Positions 11,499-34,653 of a stretch of 34,653 bases of DNA are shown piece after piece (positions within the stretch are counted from its first letter, which is position 1; every line of letters starts with the position of its first letter). The notes below the pieces were generated by a model. That model was not told the DNA's origin and did not search any database. It saw nothing but the letters and a program-made list of their open reading frames with translations. Made by a program: the position numbers and the translations under genes. The stretch comes from an uncultured Gammaproteobacteria bacterium. GTDB lineage: Bacteria; Pseudomonadota; Gammaproteobacteria; CAMYKB01. The stretch is taken from positions 1-34,653 of the forward strand of contig CAMYKB010000025.1 of the NCBI GenBank assembly GCA_947258875.1, in the 5' to 3' direction.

Positions 11499-11519
11499 CA
11501 GGTCATCCCAATTGTATTA

Positions 11520-16181: not shown

Positions 16182-16913
16182 ATGGGTTTAATCGTCAAAA
16201 AAATAGCGTTAGTACAGCGGGGGCTTAGTCTCTGTCTTCAGGTAGTATTATGCCTAGGCATAGCATTGCCGCTATGGGCTGGCGAGATCCAATCGCTACA
16301 GTCGATACGGGATGTAGTGAGCAAGTTCGTGGATGCTGAACATGCACATTCGAAATCAATATCACTGTCGACCAGCCAATTAGACAATCGACTGCGCTTG
16401 CAACGTTGTTCACGTAAGCTTGAGGCCTTCTGGTCACCCGGAGCAAGGCCGATTGGCAATACCACAGTGGGTGTAAAATGTAACGGCGACAAACCATGGA
16501 AAATTTATGTGCCGGTTTATATCGAAGCCCGCGAAAAAGTCTGGGTCGCCAATCGACACCTGACCCGTGGAGAGACCCTTGTAGCCAGTGATGCGTCTTC
16601 GCAGAATCTCAATATTTCAGCGCATCACCGCGGCTATATTACTGATATTAATAAGTTTATTGGTTACGAGCTAAAACGGTCAATCAAGAAAGGCGGCATT
16701 CTGACACCACGGAGCCTGGAGGCACCCAAGCTGGTGAAACGTGGTGAAAAGGTTATTTTGCTGGCAGCGACAAACGGTGTGGAAATACGGATGAGCGGTA
16801 CGGCTCTCAGTGACGGCAGCGAAGGGATCAGCATAAAAGTCCGTAATCTGTCCTCCAGACGTATTATCGAAGGTATAGTGATAGCACCCGGAATCGTAAA
16901 GGTAAGAATATGA
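16182..16913 (+). CDS. flgA: P-ring assembly chaperone FlgA
   Basis: FlgA is a periplasmic chaperone for FlgI during P-ring assembly. The 243-residue protein has a signal peptide (KK start, hydrophobic core near residues 14-32, cut after LWA). It has an N-terminal domain and a C-terminal SAF-type domain, visible as VWVANRHLTRGETLVASDAS (about 120-139), followed by GGILTPRSLEAPKLVKRGEKV. Length is at the upper end of the family (about 219-245). It is transcribed away from flgB and shortly followed by flgM. Confidence 0.92.
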   Translation: MGLIVKKIALVQRGLSLCLQVVLCLGIALPLWAGEIQSLQSIRDVVSKFVDAEHAHSKSISLSTSQLDNRLRLQRCSRKLEAFWSPGARPIGNTTVGVKCNGDKPWKIYVPVYIEAREKVWVANRHLTRGETLVASDASSQNLNISAHHRGYITDINKFIGYELKRSIKKGGILTPRSLEAPKLVKRGEKVILLAATNGVEIRMSGTALSDGSEGISIKVRNLSSRRIIEGIVIAPGIVKVRI

Positions 16914-16923
16914 GGCTGTTCGC

Positions 16924-16950
16924 TAAAGTTTTCCGCGAATTTGCCGTTAA
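16924..16950 (+). promoter_or_regulatory. Sigma28 (FliA) promoter for flgM-flgN
   Basis: TAAA (16924-16927), 15 bases, GCCGTTAA (16943-16950): 11 of 12 consensus positions. It lies between flgA and flgM, about 40 bases before the flgM ATG. This gives the classic loop in which sigma28 drives its own anti-sigma factor. Confidence 0.87.
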
Positions 16951-16986
16951 GACATACTGTAAACAGGCAATCTGGAGCACTAAACA

Positions 16987-17310
16987 ATGAGCAATACAAT
17001 CAATGGCACTCCCAGACCTATCCAGGCGGTGGAAGGTCGGGGTCAAACTCAATCCGAGAAGGCGAAGACTGCAGAAGGCAGTGAAGACCATCGTAAGATG
17101 GCCTCCGCCGGCAGTGGTTCGACTGACCACGTAGACCTCACTTCAACTGCGCAAAAGCTCATTGAGCTTGAGAATGGCATGAAGGACGTGCCCGTAGTCG
17201 ACCAGCAGAAAGTTGATAGCATCAAGCATGCTATTGCTGATGGTAGTTACAATGTCAACGCCGAGAGCATCGCCAGCAAGTTAATCGAGATCGAGAAATC
17301 GGATAACTGA
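16987..17310 (+). CDS. flgM: Anti-sigma28 factor FlgM
   Basis: FlgM binds and holds sigma28 (FliA) until the hook is finished, then is exported through it, releasing late gene expression. The 107-residue protein has a disordered, polar N-terminal half and the conserved C-terminal part VDLTSTAQKLIELE, then VDSIKHAIADGSYNVNAESI and ASKLIEIE. That is the helix pair that grips sigma28. GGAG precedes the ATG. It is 11 bases from flgN. Confidence 0.95.
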   Translation: MSNTINGTPRPIQAVEGRGQTQSEKAKTAEGSEDHRKMASAGSGSTDHVDLTSTAQKLIELENGMKDVPVVDQQKVDSIKHAIADGSYNVNAESIASKLIEIEKSDN

Positions 17311-17321
17311 GTGGATAAGTA

Positions 17322-17810
17322 ATGAAACCACAAGAAAACAGTAAACCACTCGAACAACTCCTGGAAGCACTGACCACACACGGACAGCACTTCAAGCAGC
17401 TACTCATCACCGAACAAGATGCACTGGATGCAAGAGATACCTCGGAGATCAATCTGATTATCAGGAAGAAGCAGGATTGTATCGAGGCGCTCTCTCATGC
17501 TGACAGTATATTCAGGAATACGTTGAATGCGACTGGCTACAATGAACATGATCACCTTGCTGACTATCTTGCCAACAAATTTGGCCCTGATTGCCCACTT
17601 ATTTTACAGCTTGATTCTTTCACTGCGTTGTTTGATGAATGCCGTAAAATCAACCAGCAAAACAATTCACTCGTTTCAATTGGTTTACGCCAGACACAAC
17701 AGGCCCTTAACCTATTAAGGGGAATCCCAGGTATTGAAAACGATAGTGTCTATGGACCCGCAGGCCAGACGCTCAATAACAACAAAGGTAAGGAGCTGGC
17801 CAAGGCCTGA
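17322..17810 (+). CDS. flgN: Junction-protein export chaperone FlgN
   Basis: FlgN is the cytoplasmic chaperone for FlgK and FlgL. The 162-residue protein is helical throughout, with the typical LEQLLEALTTHGQHFKQLLI start and the long central helix around DTSEINLIIRKKQDCIEAL. The C-terminal region around NQQNNSLVSIGLRQTQQALN is the substrate-binding part of the family. Its place directly after flgM is the normal one. Similarity in this family is modest, but size, fold pattern and location agree. Confidence 0.88.
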   Translation: MKPQENSKPLEQLLEALTTHGQHFKQLLITEQDALDARDTSEINLIIRKKQDCIEALSHADSIFRNTLNATGYNEHDHLADYLANKFGPDCPLILQLDSFTALFDECRKINQQNNSLVSIGLRQTQQALNLLRGIPGIENDSVYGPAGQTLNNNKGKELAKA

Positions 17811-17913
17811 GCAACCCTGCAGCAAACAAACGAACACTGCCCGGATAATATAAAAATGAAATAAACATTTTATAGTAGAAAGCAATTATCGGCAGGACAG
17901 GGATACTTCAGTT

Positions 17914-20574
17914 ATGGGTATGGAGCAAAAAATCGAGGAAGCCACCACTCTTGATGGCAAACAAACTGAGCTACAAATACCAGAAAGTCCGCTATCCAAG
18001 GCGAGCCTCCGCCAGCATTACCTTCTAATAACAATATTGAGCGCCATATTCATCATTGCAGGCGCATTATGGTCAGAATTGTCATTAATCAAGGCCAATA
18101 CAGAAACCACCAACAATCTCAAATTACGAAATTACCTAAACCATAAGAACAACTCCATACAAGATTCGTTATGGTTGGCCTATTATCATCTCGAAAATTA
18201 TATGGCCACACAGAATCCTGACTCGCGCTCCAAAATCCACATATCACTTAATCAGGCAACCTCAGATGCTACAGAACTAACAACCAATGAATGGATCGTA
18301 AAGAATAAATTGCAAACCACCGCATCTGATATCGCCAGCAACTTATCGGTATTGAATGGGCATCTGACCCGGGTTATGAAATTAAGGGATAGCCCTTCAG
18401 AATTATATCCTGCAATGGATACAATGCGGCAAGTTATGATGCCATCAAACAATGAGTTTAAAGCACTAATCACATTGGCCTTAGAAGAAACAACCACTGC
18501 AACAAACACCGATACCAACTTCCATATCCATGTAACGTTAGATCATGTCCGTGACAACTGGTCTGCCATGATCAGTTCATTTCGCCTCCTGATAGCCGGC
18601 CGCTTCGGTACATTTGGCGACGCCTTAAGTAATATTAACAGACAACACAATAACATTGAGCTCATGCATAACCAAATCGTTGATGACCTGAATAAGCTCC
18701 GCGCTATGGACCATAAAGGGCTTATGGGTTTTCAGACCAGCAACTTACTGCATGAGATGGAATCTCTGCTTAATCGCTGGCACACAGCTTACAGGGTTGT
18801 CAAAAAGAAATATACGCAAGAAAACTGGCGTAAGGATATTCCTTATATGCAGGACACCATCAACCCTCTTTACCAAAAAATATGGCAACAACTTGAACAG
18901 ATAGAACATGCCGCTTATAAAAAGGAATACAGCGATATTCAGACAATTACGCAGGTTGCCAACCAAATAAGAATAACATTATGGTCTCTCGCCATCCTGA
19001 CTACATTATTAATAGTTATCAGTTATTCACTGCTTGAACACACTATCCTCAGACCCGTTTCCCGTATCGCAGATGCACTCTGGAGTGAAGCCAAGGGCGG
19101 AAAAGATGTACATATCCCCGGCTCGAGTACACGGGAAATGCAACAACTCACACAGGCTTTCGAACAAATGCGGTCGCGTGTCCACGAGCGCCAAAGAGAT
19201 CTGAAACATATGGCCACGCATGATGCACTCACATCCCTTCCTAACCGAGAATTCCTTCAAACCCAGCTCGAATATGAAATTGATGAGGCGCAGCGCAACA
19301 ACAGTACACTGGCACTGCTAATGATTGACCTGGACCACTTCAAGGAGATAAATGACACTCTGGGCCATCAAGTGGGTGATGGGCTATTACAAAAAATATC
19401 AGAGCGGTTTCGCGCCGCGCTTCGTTCTACCGATACTGTAGCGCGGCTCGGTGGTGACGAATTTGCGGTCTTGCTGCCTGGTAGCAATAACGCATCCGCC
19501 CAGGAAGCTGCTGCACGCTTCTTGAAAGTGCTTGACAGGGAATTCAAGGTAATTGGTAACAAATTATACATTGCTGCCAGCATTGGCATTGCCATGTTTC
19601 CAGATCATGGAACTAATACCAATACCCTGATAAAACACGCTGATGTGGCCATGTACAATGCAAAACGCTCAAACACAGGTTTTGAAATATACGACAAATC
19701 AACCGACGGCAATTCGCTAGAGCGATTGACCCTGGTGAAAGACCTACGCAATGCTATTATCAATGATACATTACAACTTTGCTATCAACCTAAGACAGAG
19801 ATAAAAACCGGATACATATTTGGCGCAGAAGCACTTTTGCGCTGGAATCATTCTGAGCGTGGCATGATTCCACCTGATGAAATTGTTCATTTGGCAGAAT
19901 CCAATGGACTGATAGGACCTCTTACAGCATGGGTGATTAATAACGCGCTCCGCCAATGCGCCTTATGGCGAAATAACGGCATAATTTTCAATATCGCAAT
20001 TAATCTTTCCGCGTTAAACCTGCAGGACTCTGATTTTCTTAATTATGTCAATAATCAACTCAACGCATGGGATATACCGCCGAGCCTACTGATTTTCGAA
20101 ATTACAGAAAGTGCGATGATGGCCGACCCCAATAAGGCTATTAGAATTCTTAGCAAGCTCAATAATATTGGCATCCGCATTTCAGTAGACGATTTTGGTA
20201 CCGGCTTTTCTTCTCTGAGCTATCTGAATAAACTACCTGTAAGCGAACTCAAGATAGACCGTTCTTTTATAATGAATATGCTCGATAATGCTAACGATCA
20301 GATCATCGTTAAATCCACAATCGATCTGGCACATAGCCTCGGATTGCAGGTTGTTGCTGAGGGTATAGAAAATCAACTGATTCTGGACAAGCTTAATGAA
20401 TTGGACTGCGATATTGCACAGGGGTACCATATCTGCCGACCCCAGTACGCACCCGAGTTAACTAACTGGCTAAGTACTACAGATCACAGAAGGATGACCA
20501 CACTTCACGACACCAGCGAAACACTAATAACAGAAGATATTGAGGATATTGGCGGCGTCATTACAGCCACATGA
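17914..20574 (+). CDS. Membrane GGDEF-EAL protein with periplasmic helical sensor
   Basis: A dual c-di-GMP enzyme of 886 residues. A cytoplasmic tail and first membrane segment (about 36-56) lead into a large, helix-rich periplasmic domain (about 57-352). A second membrane segment (about 353-373), a HAMP-like linker, the GGDEF domain and the EAL domain follow. The synthase site reads GGDEF at 513-517 with the inhibitory I-site RSTD five residues before it. The EAL domain keeps E639 in EALLRW, DDFGTG (759-764), the TES, KIDRS and AEGIE motifs and QGY, so both activities look intact. It lies 103 bases after flgN; in pseudomonads the c-di-GMP brake gene flgZ lies near here, so a role in motility control is likely. 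The ligand of the sensor domain is unknown. Confidence 0.9.
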   Translation: MGMEQKIEEATTLDGKQTELQIPESPLSKASLRQHYLLITILSAIFIIAGALWSELSLIKANTETTNNLKLRNYLNHKNNSIQDSLWLAYYHLENYMATQNPDSRSKIHISLNQATSDATELTTNEWIVKNKLQTTASDIASNLSVLNGHLTRVMKLRDSPSELYPAMDTMRQVMMPSNNEFKALITLALEETTTATNTDTNFHIHVTLDHVRDNWSAMISSFRLLIAGRFGTFGDALSNINRQHNNIELMHNQIVDDLNKLRAMDHKGLMGFQTSNLLHEMESLLNRWHTAYRVVKKKYTQENWRKDIPYMQDTINPLYQKIWQQLEQIEHAAYKKEYSDIQTITQVANQIRITLWSLAILTTLLIVISYSLLEHTILRPVSRIADALWSEAKGGKDVHIPGSSTREMQQLTQAFEQMRSRVHERQRDLKHMATHDALTSLPNREFLQTQLEYEIDEAQRNNSTLALLMIDLDHFKEINDTLGHQVGDGLLQKISERFRAALRSTDTVARLGGDEFAVLLPGSNNASAQEAAARFLKVLDREFKVIGNKLYIAASIGIAMFPDHGTNTNTLIKHADVAMYNAKRSNTGFEIYDKSTDGNSLERLTLVKDLRNAIINDTLQLCYQPKTEIKTGYIFGAEALLRWNHSERGMIPPDEIVHLAESNGLIGPLTAWVINNALRQCALWRNNGIIFNIAINLSALNLQDSDFLNYVNNQLNAWDIPPSLLIFEITESAMMADPNKAIRILSKLNNIGIRISVDDFGTGFSSLSYLNKLPVSELKIDRSFIMNMLDNANDQIIVKSTIDLAHSLGLQVVAEGIENQLILDKLNELDCDIAQGYHICRPQYAPELTNWLSTTDHRRMTTLHDTSETLITEDIEDIGGVITAT

Positions 20575-20660
20575 TCCTGGCACTTCCCTAGTAGCGCGCC
20601 TTCTACGCCCAGCTTCCCTGAATATTCATCTCCCAAGTTGATACAAAAGACACCAAGCCT

Positions 20661-20675
20661 CCCTTTCCGAAAGGG
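20661..20675 (+). terminator. Weak hairpin after the GGDEF-EAL gene
   Basis: CCCTTT-CCG-AAAGGG forms a compact stem 87 bases past the stop codon. It is followed by TTAAATCT rather than a clean T-run, so terminator function is uncertain. Confidence 0.4.
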
Positions 20676-21028
20676 TTAAATCTATTCACACGCATCTGTA
20701 CCGCTGACGCGAAGGGTTGATATTTTTACTATTTAATCAGCTCTTACAACGTTATCTGCCCATTACATCCTGCGTCGATCCCCACTACCCGAATAAATTC
20801 ATTCTGCATCGAGACTCTTTGTTTATTAGAAATACAAATAATGAAGCACGAATAGCGGCACTACCCGTTGCACTGAAACCGCCTACAATATCTGGGCACC
20901 GAGTTAAAACAATAAAGTGACATAACGATGTGATATATGGCAACTATAACGAGAAAGAGATGGAGCTACACGGAAAACTTTGTGTGAGCAGCAGTGACCT
21001 TGATTATTGAAAAAGGCCATAAGATATT

Positions 21029-21058
21029 AAAAAAAACACAGAGCATTGTTATCTGTGT
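21029..21058 (-). terminator. Rho-independent terminator reading leftward
   Basis: On the minus strand ACACAGA pairs with TCTGTGT around a nine-base loop and is followed by eight T residues. This is the clearest intrinsic terminator in the window. It lies about 540 bases past the stop codon of the PAS-GGDEF-EAL gene, so either that message has a long 3' end or another minus-strand RNA ends here. Confidence 0.8.
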
Positions 21059-21091
21059 CAATCTGATACATAACTAGGAGCAGCTATTCGA

Positions 21092-21572
21092 ATGAGAAAC
21101 CTCAAGTCATCGACTGCGCACGATGCGCATGAAACGCTGCACGGTGGTTCATTCATGACACTTGTTAGCCACGCAGCAAAAACTTTGATAAGTGGTACCG
21201 ACCAGGTAAAGCAATTGCGCCTGAAGATTTGGTAGTCAGGTGGCAGGTGTGGGCACTGTTTGTGGCCTCACGTAACGATCAGGGCAGTTACACAACGGTG
21301 GTGCAACAACGCAAGGAAGATTTTGTGATTGGACATAATCGGACTAGCGGCTTAATGACGGCGCTGAATCAATCGAGGAAGACCATGCGCAACGCCAATA
21401 TGAGGACGCACAGCAAACAGCATCCGCCAATAACCGAAAACGTGCGGCATCGATAATGCTTTTCTGGCGCACGCAATCAGGCATGGAGCACGGACAGTGC
21501 TTATCATCACATCCAGGCTGGCTTTGCCTGGCGGTAGTGATTGGATTGTATTGCCAACGGCTAATGCGCTGA
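21092..21572 (+). pseudogene. Possible frameshifted gene remnant
   Basis: A 47-codon frame starts at ATG 21092 with AGGAG upstream and ends at 21235. After its residues SHAAK, at a five-A run near 21178-21182, a +1 shift opens a frame beginning NFDKWYRPGKAIAPEDLVVR that runs to a stop at 21454. A third frame, from about 21348 to 21572, carries EEDHAQRQYEDAQQTASANN and a tryptophan-rich end. The three pieces read like one soluble protein with two shifts, but I recognise no family and the evidence is only the protein-like composition. It may instead be non-coding, or the first piece may be a real small gene. Confidence 0.25.
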
Positions 21573-21601
21573 CACGAATAAATGGGATAAGATGGATGGG
21601 G

Positions 21602-24127
21602 TCAAGCCAGAGCAATGTACCGATTAGTCTCTACGAGACTTGACATGGCGGCAGGCTTGGCAATGCCGTATCCCTGCGCATAATCGATTCCAAGTGCCGC
21701 AACAGCGCTCAGTATCTCATTATCTTCAACAAACTCTGCCACGGTTGTTTTACCCATGACGTGGCTGATGTCATTGATCGAGCGAACCAGAGCCATACTG
21801 GTTTCATCTGTCAACATATCACGGATAAATGATCCATCGATCTTGACAATATCGACCGGCAGATTTCTGAGATAACCATACGATGACATGCCACTACCAA
21901 AATCATCAAGTGCAAAACGGCAGCCCAGCACTTGCAAGCGATTCATAAACTCGCGTGCGTGTGCAAGATTTGCAACTGCGGCCGTTTCCGTTACTTCGAA
22001 ACAAATTCTATCGGCTGGCACGCCGGAGACCCGGATTTCATCAATAACATATTCGAGGAATGAATCGTCAGTAATAGAATAGCCGGAAAGATTAATCGTA
22101 CATAAATGCAGGTCGTCAACATGAGCAGGGTTAGATTGCAACCAGGCCAAAACTGAATTCACCATCCACTTGTCGATAGCCGGCATCATGCCATAGCGTT
22201 CCGCTGCAGGCAGGAATGCGCCAGGGGCTATAAGCCCTCCATCCCTGTCTACCATTCGAATCAGGGTTTCATAATAATATTTCGAAGAGCTCGCATTATT
22301 GTTGACTGCTTCAATACGCTGAAAATATGTAACAAACCTGTTCTCCTCGAGCGCAGCCTGGATCTGTGTAACCCATTGCATCTCACCATGTCTGCGCGCC
22401 AGCTCGGAATCATCTGTACTAAAAATATGTACACGATTACGACCCTGCTCTTTGGCAACATAACAACCCTGATCCGCTGCCGTTAGCAGCTCCTCTTCAT
22501 CGCCAGCATCTATCGTTATTGGCACCATGCCGATACTAACGCCTAATGTAAAACACTTGTCTTCCCAGACGAAACGGAAATCGCTTATGGTTTTCTGTAA
22601 TTTAGCGATCACGGATTTAGCATTTTCCAGCTGACAGTCTCGCAAAAGTACACCGAACTCGTCACCACCGATACGCGCAAGTACATCCCCTCTTCGTAAC
22701 TGCTTGAGCATTAAAGGCGCAAGTTGTTGTAGTAGGGCGTCACCGGCGACGTGTCCGCAAGTATCATTTACAACCTTAAACTGATCCAGGTCCAGATAAC
22801 ATAACACATGCACAGATTGAGTGTCTTGGGTATCTTGTATACATATCTTCAGTTGATGTAAAAATTCAGTCCGGTTTGCCAACTTCGTCAAGGCATCGTG
22901 GGTCGCCTGATATTCCATCTCCTTAGCCATTTTTCGGGCTTCAGTAACATCATGAAAGATCAATACTGCACCCAGAATAGAACCTTTCTGGGAGCGTATC
23001 GGCGACACCGATTCCTCTATTGAATAATAACCTCCACCTTTTCTGAGCAAGATTGAGTTATTAGAAATACTTAATGCGTGGCCTTGTTTTATGCATGTAG
23101 ATACATAATTATCAGCACGCTTCTTGCTCACCTCATCTATAATATGAAAAACATCTTCAACGGGAACACCCACTGATTCAGCGAGAGTCCAGCCCGTGAG
23201 CGTCTCAGCAATAGAATTCATAAATCTGACACGGCCATTGCAATCGGATGTGATGACACCATCACCTATCGATTGCAGAGTTACCTCGGCCAGTTCCTTA
23301 GCGTCAAATAATTCATTCTTGGTGCGGGTTATCTCTCTCTCGCGTTGCTCTCTAAGCTGGATTTCACCTGAGAGCGTATTAACTGCGCTGGCGAGTAAAG
23401 ACAGTTCGCGAGAGGAATGGATATCAAGCTCGTGATTGTGCTCGCCCCGGGAGAGCGCCAAGATACGCTCACTAATAATCCCTATTGGCCGTACAGCTAG
23501 CACACGGAACAGGGCGAGTGTAACCAGTGCAAATATAAGTAGAGATTCGACAACTATGAGCTGGACCCGGCGGACATGATCCTTGACTGTCTCGGTAAGT
23601 GTAGCGTTATCCCAATCAATATGGACCTTACCGAACAATTCGCCCTCAAAGAGGACATCCTGCGAGAAACTTACCGATTCAGTTTGATCCACCTGCCCTT
23701 CTCGTGCCCAGGAAATCAGGCTTTGAGCATCTTCATTATCAATCCGGAAAGCCATTATGTTGGGCTCGACCCGAATCAGCTCGGCCACCATGCTCTGTAG
23801 AGTGCCCACGTCCTCACTGATTACGGCTTCAAGTGTCGCACCAGAAAACACTGCAAATTTTTCTGCGCTATAGGCCTGCAGGTCTTGCGTGATTTTCTGG
23901 CTTTCGCTACGTCGTGTCACTTCACCTGCGACAACAGCAGCCAGCAATAATATTGCCAGCAGCGCAACCGTAACGTTCAGCCACAATGGCCATAGTCTCT
24001 GCTGGCGCTCCCTGGCGGTGTCTGCCTTACCATTCTCTGAAGATTGCAAGTGAGTTAAGCTATGCAAATCACTTGCACGATTAGTATTAACAACGCTCTT
24101 GTCTTCGATTGTGGGTATGGATGCCAT
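21602..24127 (-). CDS. Membrane PAS-GGDEF-EAL protein
   Basis: An 841-residue c-di-GMP enzyme. It has an N-terminal cytoplasmic tail, membrane segments near 47-68 and 188-208, and a periplasmic domain of about 120 residues between them. HAMP-like (about 208-262), PAS (about 285-395), GGDEF (487-491) and EAL domains follow. The I-site is RRGD at 478-481. The phosphodiesterase signature reads ETL (620-622) instead of EAL, but the glutamate, NLSG, EVTE, DDFGSG, KIDGSF and QGYG motifs remain. It starts 27 bases after a PhnD-like periplasmic binding protein gene, so that protein is the natural candidate for relaying a ligand signal to its periplasmic domain. This pairing is inferred from position. 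Confidence 0.9.
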   Translation of the reverse strand: MASIPTIEDKSVVNTNRASDLHSLTHLQSSENGKADTARERQQRLWPLWLNVTVALLAILLLAAVVAGEVTRRSESQKITQDLQAYSAEKFAVFSGATLEAVISEDVGTLQSMVAELIRVEPNIMAFRIDNEDAQSLISWAREGQVDQTESVSFSQDVLFEGELFGKVHIDWDNATLTETVKDHVRRVQLIVVESLLIFALVTLALFRVLAVRPIGIISERILALSRGEHNHELDIHSSRELSLLASAVNTLSGEIQLREQREREITRTKNELFDAKELAEVTLQSIGDGVITSDCNGRVRFMNSIAETLTGWTLAESVGVPVEDVFHIIDEVSKKRADNYVSTCIKQGHALSISNNSILLRKGGGYYSIEESVSPIRSQKGSILGAVLIFHDVTEARKMAKEMEYQATHDALTKLANRTEFLHQLKICIQDTQDTQSVHVLCYLDLDQFKVVNDTCGHVAGDALLQQLAPLMLKQLRRGDVLARIGGDEFGVLLRDCQLENAKSVIAKLQKTISDFRFVWEDKCFTLGVSIGMVPITIDAGDEEELLTAADQGCYVAKEQGRNRVHIFSTDDSELARRHGEMQWVTQIQAALEENRFVTYFQRIEAVNNNASSSKYYYETLIRMVDRDGGLIAPGAFLPAAERYGMMPAIDKWMVNSVLAWLQSNPAHVDDLHLCTINLSGYSITDDSFLEYVIDEIRVSGVPADRICFEVTETAAVANLAHAREFMNRLQVLGCRFALDDFGSGMSSYGYLRNLPVDIVKIDGSFIRDMLTDETSMALVRSINDISHVMGKTTVAEFVEDNEILSAVAALGIDYAQGYGIAKPAAMSSLVETNRYIALA

Positions 24128-24154: not shown

Positions 24155-25009
24155 TTACTCAAAAAAATCTACATTACTAACAATCGCGTCGCGAATACGC
24201 CCATAGTCTGTATCTGAGCCTTCGAGAAATCCGTCGACACCCAGAGAGCGTAATAATTCGGGTTTCTGAAGTGTAACCATGGAAGCACTCAGCATTGCGA
24301 CCAGCTCTGAATCTAGGCCGGCACGGGCTACCCAGGGCTTGGTGACATTTGGCAGCTCGGCAATAACACGCAGCGGCACGCCTTTTTTAACCAGGCGCTT
24401 GTAAGTACTCTCCTTGAGGGCGCCAGCATCGAATTTCCCAGCAGCAACCGCATATGCGACACGGTCATGCCGGCCCAGGTATTCATAATGCGCAAGGTTT
24501 TTTGCATTGATCCCGTATTGCTGTAAATAATTCTGAGAAAGATAGCGGCCGATGGTCGAACCCTCATCGCCAAAGGCAAAACGCTTGCCGCGTAAATCGT
24601 CGACGCGCTCAATGGGACTATCTCGATGCACACAGATTACACCATTGAACTGTTTTCGGCCTTTCTTGCTTTCGATGGCGAGGATCGTAATACCGGGCTC
24701 ACGCTCGGTTAATTCAACGTAAGAAGCGGGCCCAATACGGGAAATATCCACTGCACCTGTCGCGATCGCCTCGATCCCCTTAGCATATGAATTAGCAACC
24801 TGGATTCTGATCTTTACGGGCTCATTAAGACGTATACTTAAGTCGGACTCCAATTGGGTCAAAACCGGCTTGAACACCTTCACGACAACACTTGGCTGGT
24901 CAGTCGTGTAGACACCCATGTTAAGTACAATTTGAGCTAGAGTGGGAGTTGAAAACAGCACAAGAAACAGCAGAGTACTGATTTTTGTGCTTACAGCGAT
25001 CAATCTCAT
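24155..25009 (-). CDS. PhnD-like periplasmic solute-binding protein
   Basis: A 284-residue binding protein of the phosphate/phosphite/phosphonate type (PhnD family). It has a signal peptide with hydrophobic core near residues 12-20, cut after TLA. The mature part starts LNMGVYTTDQPSVVVKVFKP and has the family features GAVDISRIGPASYVE, the RGKRFAFGDEGSTIGRYL segment, and KFDAGALKESTY near residues 185-200. The reading can be extended to 25102, but the ATG at 25009 has GGAGGAG upstream and places the signal peptide at the very N-terminus. No phosphonate transport genes (phnC, phnE) are nearby. It is followed at 27 bases by a membrane c-di-GMP enzyme, which suggests a sensor rather than a transporter component. 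The true ligand is unknown. Confidence 0.85.
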   Translation of the reverse strand: MRLIAVSTKISTLLFLVLFSTPTLAQIVLNMGVYTTDQPSVVVKVFKPVLTQLESDLSIRLNEPVKIRIQVANSYAKGIEAIATGAVDISRIGPASYVELTEREPGITILAIESKKGRKQFNGVICVHRDSPIERVDDLRGKRFAFGDEGSTIGRYLSQNYLQQYGINAKNLAHYEYLGRHDRVAYAVAAGKFDAGALKESTYKRLVKKGVPLRVIAELPNVTKPWVARAGLDSELVAMLSASMVTLQKPELLRSLGVDGFLEGSDTDYGRIRDAIVSNVDFFE

Positions 25010-25239
25010 TGCTCCTCCCCTGGAGTTCCAGCTGTCCATCGAAATACGATGAGGTTCGAATATATCTATCGGCCGGCATGAAGGCAACTTTAGCAAGAAC
25101 AAACATTGCGGCCGTGGTATATGCTCTCTATTTCTGTGACAATATTTTACAATCTACCTATATATAATGTGTAACTCATATTTGTTGCCTGAATACCGCC
25201 GCTGCCAGATGGCATGCAAACCACCCCCCAGCAGCACAA
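25010..25239. other. Gap between the fusion gene and the PhnD-like gene
   Basis: 230 bases with no gene. AT-rich stretches around 25140-25180 could hold a minus-strand promoter, but I find no clear -35/-10 pair, sigma28, sigma54 or Pho site. A short TGCCA-GA-TGGCA stem at 25205-25216 lies just past the fusion gene stop and has no T-tract. Whether phnD shares a transcript with the fusion gene is open. Confidence 0.45.
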
Positions 25240-28200
25240 TCACGCCCTGACAGGCTCAGGCTGGCCCTCAGACCCCCCATTGTCGGTAACGGGAAGATCT
25301 ATGGTTCCGCTATGCCCTGAAACTGGCTTATCACTGCTCGTATCTGTATTGGCGCGGCGATCGGTTGTGCGGCGGTTGGTAGTATCAGAGTATTCTGAAG
25401 ATTGCGTCTGTCGGCGAGCGGCGATACGCCGATCGATAAAGCCATTTGTACCCAGCTTCACGACCTGGCCTTCCTCGAGTTTGAATGTGGCGCCGTTAAC
25501 ACCAACAATGCAGGGAATATTATATTCGCGGGCAACAATCGACATATGGCTCAGGAAACCACCAATCTCCGTGACCACACCCGAAACGCTGTCGAAAAGC
25601 GGGATCCAGCGTGGATCCGTGTATTTCACGACCAGGATATCGTCTTTGTGCAGTGATTCGGGCATCGAGTCTTCATCCACAATTCGTATGGTACCCTGGA
25701 CTTCGCTGTCACCGGCTACCCAGGTTCCCATCAAGGCACCAGCTGTATCAACCGCATTCATCAGGCCACCATTAACATCAAACCGCAGGCCCTCGAGCGC
25801 ATGCAGCGAAAGCTCAAGCGGTAAATTAACGGCCTTGAAAACCTCTCTTTCATGTTGGCGGGATCCAACCAGCTGCGCGATCTGTTGTGCGGAAAGACGA
25901 TGTAACTTCATGACCTCATCGATGGTGAGATAAAATATTTCATGCGCCATGCATTTTCGTCGGCTGATCTCCAGCAATAACGTCCGAATACTAGAGAACT
26001 CGCGCATGCAATAATGCTTTGCATCTTCCTTCAGACTCTGAAAACGGCGTGCACGCTCAATATTGATGCGTAACAAACGATTATCTGGTAGTTCAATGTT
26101 GGCTGCAGTGGGGCTTCGCATCGGTTTTGATGCATCCACCATTTGCTCGATCAGCACTTCGTTTTCCTGGTAACGTGGCTCTGCAAGCTCGTAGTCGTGC
26201 AATGCACGGTAGCCAAATGCTTTGAGAAAATCTTCCAGCGGACGCTCACCGGTTTTTATCGCTGGCAGCATATTCAATGCCTGGTGTTGTATGGTCTCTG
26301 GACCATGCCCCAGATACGAAGCAGCCTCAAGGCCGTATTTGGCAAGTGCCTGCTTCGCTGTCTTCATATAAAAATCGGCTGCGATATTAATGATCTCGGC
26401 GTGTATATAATCCTCATGCAGAAACCGATCAAGCCATTGATCAAGCAACCCTAGCAACTCATCGAAACTGAAATGCGTCAGGTCTAGCGCCTCACGTATA
26501 CGCATATCAGAGATCAATCGCGGTAAAAACTCACTGCGGAATTCCTCTTCGATGGCATCTGCTGCCCTTGAAAGTCTGAACGATGCCATCGCACCCGGTG
26601 CGCCAAAGCGCCGCCGCCCTTCTACTACATTCACATAGGTTTGCCCGAATGCTGTCACGACATAAGCTGCGGAATCATCCTCATCAACGTTATAGGGAAT
26701 ACCCAATCGCTGACAGGCGATATCCGTTGAACCATTCTCGTCCCAAAGCGCCTGCATGACGGACAAACTCAATGGCGATGGCTCTGGCAAGAGTTCAGAA
26801 AGTTCGTTTTGCTGCAAAACCGGAGTAGCCGCATCTGTGGTTCCACTAAATAATGACATCAAACGCAGGCGTTCTCTCTCAACCACAGATTTATTGCCTT
26901 CCGCCGCCGCGGCACTGATAGTGATATCACGTGCCTGCAGAATGTAATACCTGCCCTTCGCATAGGCCCATTCAATATCCTGGGGGCAAGCAAATAGCTC
27001 TTCTATCTGACGTGCAATAGTCATTAACGGCAGAAGATCAATGGGTGACTGTTGATCATCACTCATGGGAAGTCCACTCACTGCACCATAGCTGTAAACT
27101 GAGGGTGTCGCCTTACCGCTGACTAAGGACTCACCCAGCCCCTGCACCATTTCTATCAGCATACAGCCCGTGGAGGTCGGATGCTGGGTAAACAATACAC
27201 CTGCGTATTCAGCATCCACCATGGCCTGGACCAGCACACAACCCTGACCGTGCGATTCGTTGTTATACGCTTCAACGCGACCATTATTGTAGGAACCACG
27301 AACCTGTGCTACGGCATCGAGAAGATGCTCTTTTTTAACATTCAGAACGGAATCAAAGACACCCGCAAAACTCTGTTCACTGCCATCTTCAGCAACTGCT
27401 GTGCTTCGCACTGCAACCTTGCCGACATCCAGCCTGGAAAAAGCTGTGTTGATAAGCTTCTGATCCTTATCAATCATTGACAAGGTTCCGTCCACCTGTG
27501 TCCTTGCCCGGCTCAATAACTGATCGGTAATCACAAACCCATCAGGGACAGCAAAACCTGCAGACCGCATCTGCGCCAAACGACCAGCCTTGTTACCTAT
27601 ATAAGGCACATCCTGCGCATCGCGAAGCGAGACGGTACCCGCATATCCGGGCGGGGGTACGTGGCGTAAGCGGGTACCCGAAACCGATTTCTGTTTTGCC
27701 ATCAATTGCACAATATGTGTCTGCAATAAAATGAAACCCAGACTGAAGATCAGATAGAGGCTCACAGCGGCATTTAGTGGCATACATAACACTGCGACAA
27801 ATGCAGCAAGCCCCAGATATAACAACTTGAACTTCAAACTGCGGTTTATTGTGGAACTCATAATCTGAGCGAACATCAGCGCCCCGACTATGGATGGCAT
27901 TATACGTGTTGGATCGGCCTCGCCAAGATTGGTCACCCATAGAAACGGCTCGTTTACACCCTCGGATACCTTACTAACCGCTGAGAAAAACAGAATAAAT
28001 ACACCCAGTTGAACAAACGATCCAAGCACATTGCGGCCATGTGTAAGTCCATTTTTCTTGTAAAGCCGCAGGGTAGCTCGAGAAAGCCTGGCTTTATTGT
28101 CTCCATACTTTTTCTTAAGCGCATCAATGGATGGTTTTAGCTCCCTCTGCCTGACACCGTCTCGTTCCGCCTTGAGGCTGATCGGTAAAACGATAAGACG

Positions 28201-29430
28201 CAACAGAACAACCAGAAGAAAGATAGAGAGCGTCAGCGAACCGGATTTGGCCTTCATCCAGGCCAATACCTCTTGAAGTGGCGACGTCGCAAGGTCAAAC
28301 AGGGTTTGACTCTGCATATCGCGCCATTGTGCTACGTAACCCTTTACACTGGATGGCGTCGAATATTCATGTGGCACGGTGTAACGTCCACGGTAATCAT
28401 ATCCAAGGCGGCTCAGCTTGAGACCCAGAATTTGGCTATAGAAGCAACTGCGTTTGTCATAGCAGGGTGTAATCACCGGATGCTTTGGCAGCTCCTTCAA
28501 TGCTAGGTCCAGCTCTGCAGTCGTAAGCTTGCGAACAGGTATATTCACTGCACCGGGGAGATGCCCTCTTTCAAAATCTGCCGGATACCTCAAATCAACA
28601 AATAGCGCATTCTCGTTAGCAACCAGTTCCTCTACCACAGCGGTCTTAAGTAAAACATCGCTATTGGGAAACTCGGGCAACATACGCAAATTGTTGCGCT
28701 CACCCTGCTCAAAACCAACAAGCTCGCGTTCTTCAGCGACCCACTTTTCATAACCGCCGATCACGAATCTGCAAGGGAGGCCTTGTTCGGTAAACTCAGA
28801 ACAAAGCTCCGAGCTCCTGTTACCCGAATAGCAGAGCAGCACATTCTCTTTATCAGGAAGAATAAGTTTCTCGACAGACACTCGAGTATCCGGATAGCGG
28901 CTTTGCCTGGCGCCCTTGATATACCCTGTCTCGTACTCCTCACTCTCCCGCACATCAATAATATTGAGTCCGTGACCGTTATCCAGCCAACCCTGCAATG
29001 TATCCGTAGTAATACCCCGGGGATGATTTTGTTGATCACTAAACGCCAGCGTCTTGAGTGATATGTCTCCGACAGCTTTACCAGCTTCTGTTGACGAACG
29101 CCATAAATTTGTCTGTAGGCGTTTGGTCGTCTCGTCTTTGTTATACGAAAACTGCAGAAGATTGGCAGCCAGGGAAAGCGTCAGCATAACGCCGGCTGCT
29201 ACAAACAGGTATTTCCAACCTGCCGTGATTGTTGAATGGGATCCATTTATCCGCGATCTACTTGCGAATCCTGCACCTAGCAGGACAGTCGACAAACCGA
29301 GTAGTTGTGCGACACTACCAAATAGATTAACGACTATGTCGGGTGATGGTATCGCCCATGCGTGTGTCGGGAAGATCAGGCAAAAAAGAAAACTTGATAT
29401 ACAGCAATACGCTACTCTACGACTCATCAT
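25240..29430 (-). CDS. Rhodanese-rhodanese-YidC/Oxa1-PPDK/RPH fusion protein
   Basis: A 1396-residue membrane protein joining modules normally found apart. Order: signal peptide (1-26, cut after AWA); membrane segments near 30-55 and 72-92; rhodanese 1 (about 141-240, loop CYSGNRS, C200); rhodanese 2 (about 255-372, loop CYDKRS, C323). Next comes a YidC/Oxa1 core (about 383-580) with the groove arginine R411 in LLRLIVLP. Then come a PPDK/PEP-synthase-type ATP-binding domain (about 600-840; GNKAGRLAQM, RSTAVAEDGSEQSFAG, QDIEWA), a middle domain with RPH-like segments (ALHDYELAEPRYQEN, EIFYLTIDEV) and a phosphohistidine swivel domain (GGFLSHMSIVARE, H1295). The PEP-binding barrel is absent. The tail is polar and probably disordered. 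Predicted topology puts rhodaneses in the periplasm and the ATP module in the cytoplasm. Domain calls are firm; function is unknown. A Pho-box-like promoter lies upstream. Confidence 0.87.
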   Translation of the reverse strand: MMSRRVAYCCISSFLFCLIFPTHAWAIPSPDIVVNLFGSVAQLLGLSTVLLGAGFASRSRINGSHSTITAGWKYLFVAAGVMLTLSLAANLLQFSYNKDETTKRLQTNLWRSSTEAGKAVGDISLKTLAFSDQQNHPRGITTDTLQGWLDNGHGLNIIDVRESEEYETGYIKGARQSRYPDTRVSVEKLILPDKENVLLCYSGNRSSELCSEFTEQGLPCRFVIGGYEKWVAEERELVGFEQGERNNLRMLPEFPNSDVLLKTAVVEELVANENALFVDLRYPADFERGHLPGAVNIPVRKLTTAELDLALKELPKHPVITPCYDKRSCFYSQILGLKLSRLGYDYRGRYTVPHEYSTPSSVKGYVAQWRDMQSQTLFDLATSPLQEVLAWMKAKSGSLTLSIFLLVVLLRLIVLPISLKAERDGVRQRELKPSIDALKKKYGDNKARLSRATLRLYKKNGLTHGRNVLGSFVQLGVFILFFSAVSKVSEGVNEPFLWVTNLGEADPTRIMPSIVGALMFAQIMSSTINRSLKFKLLYLGLAAFVAVLCMPLNAAVSLYLIFSLGFILLQTHIVQLMAKQKSVSGTRLRHVPPPGYAGTVSLRDAQDVPYIGNKAGRLAQMRSAGFAVPDGFVITDQLLSRARTQVDGTLSMIDKDQKLINTAFSRLDVGKVAVRSTAVAEDGSEQSFAGVFDSVLNVKKEHLLDAVAQVRGSYNNGRVEAYNNESHGQGCVLVQAMVDAEYAGVLFTQHPTSTGCMLIEMVQGLGESLVSGKATPSVYSYGAVSGLPMSDDQQSPIDLLPLMTIARQIEELFACPQDIEWAYAKGRYYILQARDITISAAAAEGNKSVVERERLRLMSLFSGTTDAATPVLQQNELSELLPEPSPLSLSVMQALWDENGSTDIACQRLGIPYNVDEDDSAAYVVTAFGQTYVNVVEGRRRFGAPGAMASFRLSRAADAIEEEFRSEFLPRLISDMRIREALDLTHFSFDELLGLLDQWLDRFLHEDYIHAEIINIAADFYMKTAKQALAKYGLEAASYLGHGPETIQHQALNMLPAIKTGERPLEDFLKAFGYRALHDYELAEPRYQENEVLIEQMVDASKPMRSPTAANIELPDNRLLRINIERARRFQSLKEDAKHYCMREFSSIRTLLLEISRRKCMAHEIFYLTIDEVMKLHRLSAQQIAQLVGSRQHEREVFKAVNLPLELSLHALEGLRFDVNGGLMNAVDTAGALMGTWVAGDSEVQGTIRIVDEDSMPESLHKDDILVVKYTDPRWIPLFDSVSGVVTEIGGFLSHMSIVAREYNIPCIVGVNGATFKLEEGQVVKLGTNGFIDRRIAARRQTQSSEYSDTTNRRTTDRRANTDTSSDKPVSGHSGTIDLPVTDNGGSEGQPEPVRA

Positions 29431-30281: not shown

Positions 30282-30644
30282 ATGACGAGCGTGCTGGCGG
30301 TAGATGACTCACCATCCATTCGGCAGATGGTGTCCTACACCCTCGAGAGTGCCGGGTATAACGTTGTCGTGGCCTGCGATGGTGATGAGGCCTTGAAGAT
30401 CGCCAAAAATACAAACATGAACCTGGTCATCACTGACGTCAACATGCCCAACATGGATGGCATCACACTAGTAAAGAAACTTCGTTCATTATCTGATTAC
30501 AAATTCAAACCAATTTTAATTCTAACGACAGAATCCAGCATGGAGAAGAAAATGCAGGGCAAATCAGCTGGCGCTACGGGTTGGATCGTAAAACCTTTCA
30601 ATCCCGATTTATTACTTACGACCCTGAAGAAGGTACTCGATTAG
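30282..30644 (+). CDS. cheY: Chemotaxis response regulator CheY
   Basis: A 120-residue stand-alone receiver domain. Phosphorylated by CheA, it would bind the flagellar switch and change motor direction. The acidic pair D8-D9, the phosphorylation site D52 in VITDVNMPNMDG, the switch threonine in LILTTESS (near residue 83) and K104 in VKPF are all present. An AAGGAGA site precedes the ATG. It resembles the CheY copies found next to cheA in multi-operon chemotaxis systems (VLAVDDSPSIRQMV start), so a second CheY with the direct motor role may lie elsewhere in the genome. It is 35 bases from cheA. Confidence 0.94.
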   Translation: MTSVLAVDDSPSIRQMVSYTLESAGYNVVVACDGDEALKIAKNTNMNLVITDVNMPNMDGITLVKKLRSLSDYKFKPILILTTESSMEKKMQGKSAGATGWIVKPFNPDLLLTTLKKVLD

Positions 30645-30679
30645 GAATACAGGACGACTATTCAACGGAGCAGCAGACA

Positions 30680-32764
30680 GTGTCTATCGATTTATCAGAA
30701 TTTCATGACATATTTTTCGAAGAATGCTTTGAGGGTCTCGAGGTTTTGGAGTCCGGCTTGCTCAATCTGGACCAGAATACCGATGTAGAAGAAATAAACG
30801 CCATTTTCCGTGCGGCGCACTCTATCAAGGGTGGTGGCGCGTCATTCGGATTTACTGATATTTCTGATTTCACGCATGTCATGGAGACCTTACTCGATGA
30901 AATGCGGGATGGACGTCGCGCCATAACCCGGGAAGTAGTCGACCTCTTGCTCAAATCAGTTGATTGCCTGCGCGATATGACTAACGCAGCCAAAAATAGT
31001 GAAGACAGCGACCAACAACGTACAGCAGCCATCAAGCAACAACTTGAAGACATGTTGGCTACCGATGGAGATACGAAACCTGTAACTCATAACGATACAA
31101 CGCAGACCAAAGTCAGCGAAGATACTGCCTGCAGCCCAGTTGAATGGCTGATCCACTTCCGACCAGACAGCGAGATGCTACAAACGGGTAACGAACCCAC
31201 CCGATTGTTCCGTGAACTTGCCACCCTGGGTGAAATCAGCGTCCAGGCGGACATGAGCAATTTACCCGCATATGACGAACTCAATCCGGAATGTTGTTAC
31301 CTTGGGTGGGAACTGGTCTTGAAAGGTGATATCAACAAGGAACAAATAGACGAATTATTTGATTGGGTCAAAGACTGTAGCGACCTTGAAATCACACCGC
31401 TTGGCAATTACAACCAACCTTCAACCGAAGCAGTAACGCAGGCAGATAATACCGCGACCGCAGAAGCTGGAACTACCAACAATGACAGTAAGAACGCAAT
31501 ACAAAAAGCGAAGGTAACAGACAAACCCAAGGGCTCTGGGGCTGGTAAGGAATCCGGTTCCATCAGAGTAGCAATTGACAAAATAGATGAACTTATCAAT
31601 CTGGTCGGTGAACTGGTCATTTCCCAATCCATGCTAAGCCAGATAGGCAACCACTTGGAAGATACCGATCTCAGTAATACAGAAATTCTACGTGATGGAC
31701 TGTCCCAACTGGAACGCAACACGCGCGAACTTCAGGAAAGCGTACTGAAGATTCGCATGTTACCAATCAGTTTTTCTTTCAGTCGTTTTCCCAGACTTGT
31801 ACGCGACCTCAGCAGCAAGGTGGGCAAACAAGTTGAACTGAAACTCAGCGGTGAACAGACCGAGGTCGACAAGACCGTTTTGGAAAAAATCGGGGACCCT
31901 CTGGTCCACCTGGTCCGCAATTCCCTGGATCACGGGCTTGAGACCCCGGAAATACGCAAGGCAAACAACAAACCCGAAACAGGTAGTCTATGTCTCAACG
32001 CCTATCACGAAGGCAGCGAAATTGTAATTGAAGTCAGCGACGATGGCGCAGGACTGAACAAAGACAGGATTCTCAACAAAGCTATTGAAAAAGGCTTGGT
32101 CGCGGAGAATCAGGAACTCACAGATGAACAGATATATAACCTGATTTTCCAACCCGGGTTCTCAACAGCGGAACAGGTCAGCGACGTTTCAGGTCGCGGC
32201 GTAGGTATGGATGTCGTGAGACGCAACATCAGAGATCTTGGCGGTAATGTCAGTATCACATCACAACCAGACAAAGGCAGCACAGTTACTATCCGCCTAC
32301 CGCTCACTCTGGCTATCCTGGATGGACAACTTACAAGTGTCGGAGAACAAACCTATATTCTGTCATTGGTATCGATCATCGAATCATTACAGGTAATCCC
32401 CGAGCATGTAAGCAGCATTACGGGTCAGGCTGAATTTTATCAACTGCGCGACGAATATATCCCGATTATAAGACTCTCTGAAGAATTTGAGGTTGAACAA
32501 AGCTCCGACGATCTCAGCCAAGGGTTACTGGTAGTGGTAGAAGCCGAAGGGCAACGCTATGGATTGTTTGTTGACGACCTGATGGGGCAACAGCAGGTCG
32601 TAATCAAGAGCCTGGAAACCAATTTCAAGCAACTGCAAGGCATATCCGGCGCCACCATTCTCGGGGACGGTACCGTCGCCTTGATCCTGGATGTACCCGG
32701 TCTGATCCAGCGTCATTACGAAAAGCGCAACACAGCAATGAAACCCGTATCGGACGTTGCGTAA
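30680..32764 (+). CDS. cheA: Chemotaxis histidine kinase CheA
   Basis: CheA is the kinase of the receptor array. With the GTG start at 30680 it has 694 residues and a complete set of domains. P1 phosphotransfer carries H47 in AAHSIKGGGASFGF. A P2-like domain spans about 150-245. A flexible linker precedes the P3 dimerisation helices (about 295-360). The P4 ATPase (about 365-545) has the N-box around HLVRNSLDHGLE, DDGAGLN and GRGVGMDVV. A P5 CheW-like domain spans about 545-680. The reading frame extends upstream to a TTG inside cheY (30581). I reject that start because the P1 domain begins exactly at VSIDLSEFHDIF and GGAG stands nine bases before the GTG. Confidence 0.95.
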   Translation: MSIDLSEFHDIFFEECFEGLEVLESGLLNLDQNTDVEEINAIFRAAHSIKGGGASFGFTDISDFTHVMETLLDEMRDGRRAITREVVDLLLKSVDCLRDMTNAAKNSEDSDQQRTAAIKQQLEDMLATDGDTKPVTHNDTTQTKVSEDTACSPVEWLIHFRPDSEMLQTGNEPTRLFRELATLGEISVQADMSNLPAYDELNPECCYLGWELVLKGDINKEQIDELFDWVKDCSDLEITPLGNYNQPSTEAVTQADNTATAEAGTTNNDSKNAIQKAKVTDKPKGSGAGKESGSIRVAIDKIDELINLVGELVISQSMLSQIGNHLEDTDLSNTEILRDGLSQLERNTRELQESVLKIRMLPISFSFSRFPRLVRDLSSKVGKQVELKLSGEQTEVDKTVLEKIGDPLVHLVRNSLDHGLETPEIRKANNKPETGSLCLNAYHEGSEIVIEVSDDGAGLNKDRILNKAIEKGLVAENQELTDEQIYNLIFQPGFSTAEQVSDVSGRGVGMDVVRRNIRDLGGNVSITSQPDKGSTVTIRLPLTLAILDGQLTSVGEQTYILSLVSIIESLQVIPEHVSSITGQAEFYQLRDEYIPIIRLSEEFEVEQSSDDLSQGLLVVVEAEGQRYGLFVDDLMGQQQVVIKSLETNFKQLQGISGATILGDGTVALILDVPGLIQRHYEKRNTAMKPVSDVA

Positions 32765-32782
32765 CCAAGGAGATTATTAACC

Positions 32783-33298
32783 ATGAATACAGCACAGACT
32801 GCCGAAACCACACTGCAGGCAGAAGACGGGATGGATCAATACCTTACTTTCATGCTCGCCGGCGAGGAATACGGCGTTGACATCCTGCGTGTACAGGAGA
32901 TCAAAGGCTGGAGCACAGCCACACCCTTACCCAATACACCAGATTACATACTTGGCGTCATTAACCTGCGCGGTACCGTGGTACCGGTTATCGATTTGCG
33001 AAAACGCTTCAAACTGGAAAGCATTGCTTTCGGACAAACGACAGTCGTGATTGTGGTCAAAGTTGCTGACGATGGATTTGGCGAACGTATTGTAGGCATC
33101 GTGGTTGATGCCGTCTCCGAGGTGCATAACGTAGCAACAACGGACCTCAAACCGGCACCGGATTTTGGCGGCGCTATCAGTACCGATTCGATGAAGGGGC
33201 TAACGACCGTAGATGACAAGATGTTGATAATGCTCGACATAGATCATTTGATGAATAAAGACGTACTGAAGGATTTCGAACAAACGGAACAGGAATAG
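32783..33298 (+). CDS. cheW: Chemotaxis coupling protein CheW
   Basis: CheW links receptors to CheA in the array. The 171-residue protein has the full fold: YLTFMLAGEEYGVDILRVQE (about residues 20-39), PNTPDYILGVINLRGTVVPV (about 51-70), IDLRKRF, and the C-terminal VVDAVSEVHNV segment. AAGGAG precedes the ATG, 18 bases after cheA. Length is normal (about 160-175). Confidence 0.96.
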   Translation: MNTAQTAETTLQAEDGMDQYLTFMLAGEEYGVDILRVQEIKGWSTATPLPNTPDYILGVINLRGTVVPVIDLRKRFKLESIAFGQTTVVIVVKVADDGFGERIVGIVVDAVSEVHNVATTDLKPAPDFGGAISTDSMKGLTTVDDKMLIMLDIDHLMNKDVLKDFEQTEQE

Positions 33299-33392
33299 CA
33301 ACCATTGCATATGACCGTACCGTCGAGTCTCGATAAAACTTTTAGCGCATAGCAATAACTATTTCAAATTTATTTGCTTAGGGGCAAGCAAG

Positions 33393-34653
33393 ATGAAGAT
33401 AAACCAACCCGTAACAGACAATGAAATCCATATAAAAGAAGGACAATTTATTGTCTCCACCACTAATTTAAAAGGATGCATTAGCTATGTTAATCGCGAC
33501 TTTATCGAAATCAGCGGTTTCAATAAACAGGAACTGGTTGGCAACAATCATAATGTGATTCGACACCCTGATATGCCACCGGCGGCATTCGAAGATTTAT
33601 GGAATACCGTCAAGGCTGATAAACCCTGGACAGGAATCGTCAAAAACCGCTGCAAGAACGGCGACTTTTACTGGGTAGTGGCAAATGTAACACCCGTTCG
33701 TGAAGGCGGTCGTACTACGGGTTATATGTCAGTACGTACTCGGCCCACCCGAGAACAGATCCAGAATGCGGAGGCGTTGTATGCAAGCCTCCGCGAAGAC
33801 AAGACAACGCTGAAACCCTCTTTTGGTAACAGACTCATGAAGAGGTTTAGAGATTATAATGTTCAGGCATATCTGAAAATGTTACTGGTACTTAATGTTG
33901 TAGTGATAACAGGTATTAGCACTCTCGCATACCAGGACGTCAGTCCCACCATGCTTGCCTTCATAATCGCCGGAGCCACGGTTTTCATGGCGATTGCCGT
34001 GTCTCTGCTTAACCGTCATATCAAAACGCCGATAGATTATGCAATTGAGGCACTGCATCAAATCGCAGATGGGGATTATTTCAATTGGGTAGAAACGACT
34101 CGGGATGATGAGTTCGGCAGGTTATTACAGAACCTTAAATCAACACAAATCCGTCTCGCTTGCGACGTGAACGAAACTCGCCAGATAGCAACCGAGACCG
34201 GCCGCATCAAACAGGCACTGGATAACGTTAACGCCAATGTGATGATTGCAGACAGAGACTTCAATATTATCTACACAAATGATGCTGTCATTAACATGAT
34301 GCACAATGCACAGGAAGACCTGCGCAAGGATCTGCCGGACTTCGATACGGATAAGTTACTGGGTAGCAACATCGATATATTCCACAAGAATCCAACACAT
34401 CAGCGGCATTTTCTGACTGCGCTAGAGGAGTCTTACACGTCCAATATACAAGTCGGTGGACGCCATCTGCGCATTACTGCCAACCCGATCTTTGATCACG
34501 ATGGCGAACGCCTGGGTACGGTGGTGGAATGGGCTGACCGCAGCCAGGAAGTGAGCGTGGAAGAAGAGATCCAGACTATTGTCGATAGCGCTCTGGCCGG
34601 CGACCTCAGCCAGCGCATCGAGCTTGATGGCAAGGCAGGGTTCTTCGAGAAGC
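33393..34653 (+). CDS. aer: Aer-like PAS chemoreceptor (partial)
   Basis: The first 420 residues of a membrane receptor cut by the window edge. The N-terminal PAS domain (about 10-115) closely matches the FAD-binding domain of Aer, with R57-H58 in VIRHPDMP and W79 in PWTGIVKNRCKNGDFYW, residues tied to flavin binding in E. coli Aer. Two membrane segments follow (about 162-180 and 187-205) with only a short loop between them, as in Aer. Next come a HAMP-like region, a second PAS domain (about 275-385) absent from E. coli Aer, and the start of another HAMP-like unit (SALAGDLSQRIE). The signalling domain should follow outside the window. It would sense redox or energy state and signal through the CheA-CheW pair just upstream. 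It starts 94 bases after cheW. Confidence 0.9.
   Translation, partial: MKINQPVTDNEIHIKEGQFIVSTTNLKGCISYVNRDFIEISGFNKQELVGNNHNVIRHPDMPPAAFEDLWNTVKADKPWTGIVKNRCKNGDFYWVVANVTPVREGGRTTGYMSVRTRPTREQIQNAEALYASLREDKTTLKPSFGNRLMKRFRDYNVQAYLKMLLVLNVVVITGISTLAYQDVSPTMLAFIIAGATVFMAIAVSLLNRHIKTPIDYAIEALHQIADGDYFNWVETTRDDEFGRLLQNLKSTQIRLACDVNETRQIATETGRIKQALDNVNANVMIADRDFNIIYTNDAVINMMHNAQEDLRKDLPDFDTDKLLGSNIDIFHKNPTHQRHFLTALEESYTSNIQVGGRHLRITANPIFDHDGERLGTVVEWADRSQEVSVEEEIQTIVDSALAGDLSQRIELDGKAGFFEK

Follow-up and report, generated by a model that had tools for sequence, protein, structure and literature searches.

A rhodanese-YidC-dikinase fusion protein associated with a periplasmic binding protein and a membrane sensor in gammaproteobacteria and roseobacters

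In a contig of an uncultured Gammaproteobacteria bacterium (CAMYKB010000025.1; the whole stretch of 34,653 nucleotides that was analyzed is referred to as the window), a single uninterrupted frame of 1396 codons (positions 25240-29430, - strand) encodes a 1396-amino-acid (aa) protein that joins two rhodaneses, a YidC core, an ATP-grasp domain, a middle domain, and a swivel domain, in this order. In nearly all loci that we read, a periplasmic binding protein and a membrane sensor adjoin this fusion protein. We tentatively propose that the fusion is a membrane-anchored dikinase of the RPH type and the third member of a module that senses a periplasmic ligand, with the swivel domain probably contacting the sensor. 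The parts are of known kinds; what is new is how they are combined, the association of the three genes, and the reduced forms. Literature searches for this domain combination found no description, and none of the homologues found is characterized, in keeping with an earlier reading of the DNA made from its letters alone (hereafter, the sequence-only reading), which knew of no described system of this kind. That reading missed the three-gene sensory module, the swap of the sensor's output, and the wide but sporadic distribution of the fusion.

The modules that the sequence-only reading had recognized are confirmed by the frame and by Pfam, which finds two Rhodanese domains (E 1e-21), 60KD_IMP/YidC at residues 400-575 (E 1.8e-24; 87 bits vs. 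a cut-off of 35), PPDK_N at residues 670-780 (E 1.5e-36), and PEP-utilizers at residues 1261-1326 (E 2e-22). Among NCBIfam models, the YidC C-terminal domain is matched above threshold, and the phosphoenolpyruvate (PEP) synthase and RPH models are matched below threshold only (RPH score of 189 vs. a cut-off of 999). The protein begins with a signal peptide-like segment (residues 1-26; 29353-29430, this and the following features being on the - strand), an invariant A26-I-P-S-P30, and two predicted transmembrane helices, a (residues 32-50; 29281-29337) and b (residues 74-92; 29155-29211). Rhodanese 1 (residues 142-232; 28735-29007) carries the loop C200-Y-S-G-N-R, and rhodanese 2 (approximately residues 260-360; 28351-28653) carries C323-Y-D-K-R-S-C329. 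They are followed by the five-helix YidC/Oxa1 core with its groove R411 (residues 399-575; 27706-28236), the ATP-grasp domain with invariant K614, R675, E820, Q832, and R834 (approximately residues 605-840; 26911-27618), the putatively acceptor-binding middle domain with invariant K1134, E1135, K1138, and H1139 (residues 880-1225; 25756-26793), and the phosphohistidine swivel domain with H1295 in the motif T-x-x-G-G-x-x-x-H (approximately residues 1235-1335; 25426-25728).

In an alignment of 25 homologues, residues C200, C323, C329, R411, and H1295 are invariant; C200, C323, R411, and H1295 had been placed correctly from the letters. The rhodanese loops are likewise invariant as C200-x-S/N-G-N-R and C323-Y-D-x-R-S-C. 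Positions 210 and 220 hold Cys in 23 of the 25 sequences and Thr in two, a pattern that would fit a C210-C220 disulfide. Hydrophobic segments at residues 9-27, 32-50, and 74-92 precede the rhodaneses, and the YidC core at 399-575 follows them. The loop between helices a and b is strongly positive (mean charge of +5.6), as expected of a cytoplasmic loop, the C1 loop has a mean charge of +4.5, and loop 2-3 has a mean charge of -2.4. Based on this charge bias and on hydrophobicity, the rhodaneses are predicted to be periplasmic and the dikinase cytosolic. The earlier suggestion that a substrate is phosphorylated at the inner membrane at the expense of ATP, with rhodaneses on the periplasmic side, is plausible given this predicted topology and the retained residues.

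The search for homologues of the same architecture, proposed in the sequence-only reading, recovered proteins of 33-46% identity in three gammaproteobacterial orders and in roseobacters. Full-length gammaproteobacterial homologues have 40-46% identity; those in genome G192 and in 12 of the 48 genomes in the order of genome G353 have 43-46%, and three further homologues are interrupted by contig ends. About 81 plasmids of Phaeobacter, Leisingera, Tritonibacter, Parasedimentitalea, and Ruegeria carry the fusion at 34-36% identity. The fusion is present in 13 of 348 genomes, from 12 genera, in a sample whose family we take from the plasmid hosts to be Rhodobacteraceae, in 1 of 288 genomes of an Alphaproteobacteria sample, and in 5 of 398 genomes of a phylum-wide sample, one of these being a weaker, partial match. 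The distribution is sporadic, yet the architecture is constant among full-length members. A single-sequence scan of the genome contigs yielded generic YidC fragments only, and phage records yielded RPH-like or partial matches only. In Phaeobacter, Ruegeria, and Leisingera, the homologues are annotated merely as "PEP/pyruvate-binding domain-containing protein." Phaeobacter inhibens DSM 17395 carries the fusion on its 262-kb plasmid; this plasmid can be cured (PMC5421792), and therefore the fusion is dispensable in P. inhibens. That the frame is an assembly error or a chance read-through merging separate genes has next to no probability: the same full-length architecture recurs across numerous independent assemblies and in complete plasmids. 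All modules retain their catalytic residues, as the sequence-only reading had noted, and the full-length homologues confirm that this is more than a chance fusion.

The C-terminal half of the fusion has its best PDB matches in the RPH structures 5hv2 and 5fbs (E 6e-67). As in RPH-Lm (PDB 5fbs, 5hv1, and 5hv2; PMC4844700), an ATP-grasp domain is followed by a middle domain and a C-terminal swivel with a histidine. The fusion retains an Arg of the R117 type and residues of the E667 and K670 types. Its K1134, E1135, and K1138, invariant in the 25 aligned sequences, align with R666, E667, and K670 of RPH-Lm, which form the acceptor phosphate network of that enzyme (PMC4844700), with Lys replacing Arg at the first position. 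The fusion differs from RPH in this replacement, in the first half of its middle domain, which is unrelated by sequence, and in the position of the dikinase behind rhodaneses and a YidC core. A PDB sequence search with the middle domain alone gave no matches at E up to 1. With the two-component dikinase HpeHI (PMC12167813), the fusion shares the swivel motif T/S-x-x-G-G-x-x-x-H without the regulatory Thr, a feature also of RPH; HpeHI, in contrast, is soluble, consists of two separate proteins, and acts on phenolic substrates. Pfam finds no PEP/pyruvate TIM-barrel behind the swivel, such as PpsA has. The phosphotransfer module had been described as PPDK/RPH-like. This description can be refined: with its swivel at the C terminus, the module is RPH-like and not PPDK-like, and its middle domain has no PDB sequence match. 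The interpretation of the fusion as a putative dikinase is well supported by its residues.

In the window, the next gene after the fusion, in the same orientation, encodes a PhnD/PtxB-type periplasmic binding protein (24155-25009). Its most likely start is the ATG at 25009, which follows GGGGAGGAG; the TTG listed as the start, at 25102, is probably not the true one. Next comes a membrane sensor (21602-24127, - strand) with a periplasmic domain and HAMP, PAS, GGDEF, and EAL domains. In roseobacters and the order of G353, a PhnD-type protein is again the partner, together with a hybrid histidine kinase. Residues 46-260 of the window's sensor, its periplasmic part, are homologous to the periplasmic part of the histidine kinases of the related loci (E 1e-34 to 1e-21). 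Because the periplasmic domains are homologous while the outputs differ, the sequences indicate that the sensor kept its input and swapped its output. The binding protein tracks the fusion: in Rhodobacteraceae, an orthologue is present in 13 of 13 fusion carriers vs. 1 of 335 non-carriers, and the carriers within the order of G353 encode it with E values of 1e-128 or better, G377, in which the fusion sits on a short contig, being the one exception. Pairwise distances of the fusion domains, the binding protein, and the sensor correlate across 31 loci (r = 0.91-0.98). Several non-carriers in the order of G353 have weaker paralogues of the binding protein, and those that we read lie next to a kinase or a GGDEF-EAL protein, with the full fusion absent. 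Because such pairs exist without it, the fusion is an added partner of a sensor pair that can stand alone. At loci L096 and L098, the binding protein-GGDEF-EAL pairs without a fusion are similar to the window's pair.

The module resembles AioX-AioS and ThsS-type sensors (PMC5908839, PMC5408782), in which a PhnD-family protein or domain feeds a membrane histidine kinase. It is unlike them in that a dikinase fusion joins it and in that its output is a hybrid kinase without a DNA-binding regulator or a GGDEF-EAL protein. No DNA-binding response regulator was found in the loci that we read, except for a LuxR-type regulator near the fusion at locus L036, which lacks the binding protein and in which the C-terminal tail of the fusion is extended.

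Reduced forms of the fusion occur next to the sensor kinase. In G257 (L047:8692-11325, - strand), the C-terminal module stands beside the kinase without rhodaneses or a YidC core; its K614, E681, D682, Q832, and H1295 are all substituted, leaving it catalytically dead, and no binding protein was found nearby. In G384 and G386, a solo swivel protein (175-184 aa; L100:5966-6517, - strand; L097:12558-13082, + strand) sits where G380 has the fusion, with the same flanking genes and beside the same kinase. The solo swivels are 52-57% identical to the swivel of the fusion and lack the catalytic histidine, its motif being substituted. Between G384 and G386, nonsynonymous divergence (dN) is 0.22, synonymous divergence (dS) is saturated, and differences at the three codon positions number 41/20/95. 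The solo swivels are under purifying selection and are maintained without catalysis. The simplest reading would be that the solo swivel contacts the kinase.

These observations bear on two other functions of the fusion. It is possible, although we do not favor it, that the fusion is an ordinary small-molecule dikinase, detoxifying or catabolic like RPH or HpeHI, which is anchored in the membrane and merely regulated transcriptionally by the sensor, with no signaling of its own. The RPH-like domain order and acceptor residues, the divergent regulator-target genes in roseobacters, and the sensor pairs without a fusion would be expected under this explanation, but it accounts neither for the rhodaneses nor for the retention of catalytically dead modules beside a kinase, and it has to contend with hybrid kinases and GGDEF-EAL proteins that themselves lack a DNA-binding output. 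We regard as unlikely the opposite extreme, a signaling dikinase that uses phosphorylated H1295 to inform the hybrid kinase or cyclic di-GMP (c-di-GMP) enzyme of the state of sulfur or ligand in the periplasm, with small-molecule chemistry secondary or absent. While the purifying selection on dead solo swivels at the same operon site, the dead G257 module beside its kinase, and the sensor output swap agree with it, acceptor-site residues are kept in all full-length proteins and would be superfluous for pure signaling.

To consider which ligand the module may sense, we compared the binding protein with its nearest solved relative, the phosphite-binding PtxB (PDB 5jvb). The ligand residues listed for Te_PtxB are Y55, Y100, S130, T131, S132, H160, and the capping Y208 (PMC5700983). 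Equivalents of Y55, S130, T131, and H160 are retained; unlike in PtxB, S132 is replaced by Ile, Y100 by Phe, and Y208 by an invariant Lys. Phosphite is disfavored as the ligand by the substitution of the capping Tyr and the third Ser, and the ligand is likely another oxyanion or anionic compound. Sensing of arsenite, as by AioX, was also rejected, the alignment of the binding protein showing no conserved Cys.

A role as an accessory protein of sulfur oxidation (thiosulfate/Sox) would suit periplasmic rhodaneses and the sensing of thiosulfate by ThsS through PhnD-like domains (PMC5408782). In the order of G353, SoxB is encoded in 9 of 9 tested carriers vs. 2 of 6 non-carriers or remnant holders, and the window's genome encodes it too. 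In Rhodobacteraceae, however, SoxB is not associated with the fusion (7 of 13 carriers vs. 10 of 14 non-carriers). Because SoxB fails to follow the fusion beyond the order of G353, we reject a general Sox/thiosulfate link and consider the accessory role very unlikely.

The YidC core, which matches the E. coli protein at E 7e-22, shares with YidC/Oxa1 insertases (PDB 5mg3, 4utq) the five-helix core, the groove Arg, the FLW..DP loop, and a charged C1 loop. It differs from them in having rhodaneses in the place of the P1 domain and a dikinase instead of a short C-tail, and in being a second copy: the check for a separate yidC that the sequence-only reading had proposed showed that the genome encodes a standard YidC (561 aa), and also a PpsA-like protein (797 aa). 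The YidC signature and the invariant groove arginine could speak for a dedicated insertase of a modified client protein or lipid, as that reading had suggested. This suggestion did not hold up and is highly improbable, since a standard yidC lies elsewhere in the genome, the core is one of the most variable modules (43% mean identity vs. 56% for the rhodaneses), no client gene recurs besides the binding protein and sensor, and the carrier plasmid of P. inhibens is curable.

We return to the proposed membrane-anchored dikinase within a sensing module. In such a module, the PtxB/PhnD-like protein would capture an oxyanion-type ligand in the periplasm and engage the membrane sensor, and the two periplasmic rhodaneses would handle or read sulfur or thiol chemistry. 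The YidC core would serve as a membrane scaffold and possibly as a route for a hydrophobic substrate. The cytosolic ATP-grasp domain would phosphorylate H1295, and the swivel would carry the phosphate to an acceptor at the K1134/E1135/K1138 site of the middle domain. The swivel or C-terminal part probably also contacts the sensor, be it a hybrid kinase or, as in the window, a GGDEF-EAL protein.

Several points weigh against this proposal. The coupling of the fusion to the sensor is suggested by genomic evidence only, and the correlation of distances may be explained by common ancestry or joint transfer alone. At L036 (G192), the fusion adjoins an unrelated kinase, with the binding protein absent, and the solo swivels may serve something besides sensor contact. 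AlphaFold, run on the window sequence alone without an alignment, gave unusable models (predicted local distance difference test scores of 40 and 34), so that no structural support was gained. We are doubtful of a bolder version, a novel transmembrane signal transducer in which a YidC-scaffold dikinase with periplasmic rhodaneses couples the periplasmic sulfur or anion state to a histidine kinase or c-di-GMP enzyme via the phosphohistidine swivel.

In the window (positions 16182-20574 and 30282-34652), flagellar genes and a second GGDEF-EAL gene border the module at one end, and CheY, CheA, CheW, and a PAS-type receptor are encoded beyond its other end. The approximately 1 kb between the two GGDEF-EAL genes (20575-21601) has no convincing reading frame, and no Rfam families or tRNAs were detected within the window. 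A zinc uptake cluster (ZnuABC and a Fur-type regulator) adjoins the module at loci L050, L033, L032, L077, L081, L083, and L084, and TviB and a MurR/RpiR regulator are often also beside it in roseobacters. In Ruegeria sp. TM1040 (L032, around 10841-11659, - strand), the frame of the binding protein holds a stop codon and is unannotated.

The fusion would be, as far as we found, the first described PEP-synthase-type dikinase built on an insertase fold that exposes sulfur-transfer domains to the periplasm. The tractable marine hosts Phaeobacter, Ruegeria, and Leisingera allow direct testing of the fusion, and the swap of sensor outputs, together with the dead solo swivels, represents a natural experiment on the exchange of parts between modules.

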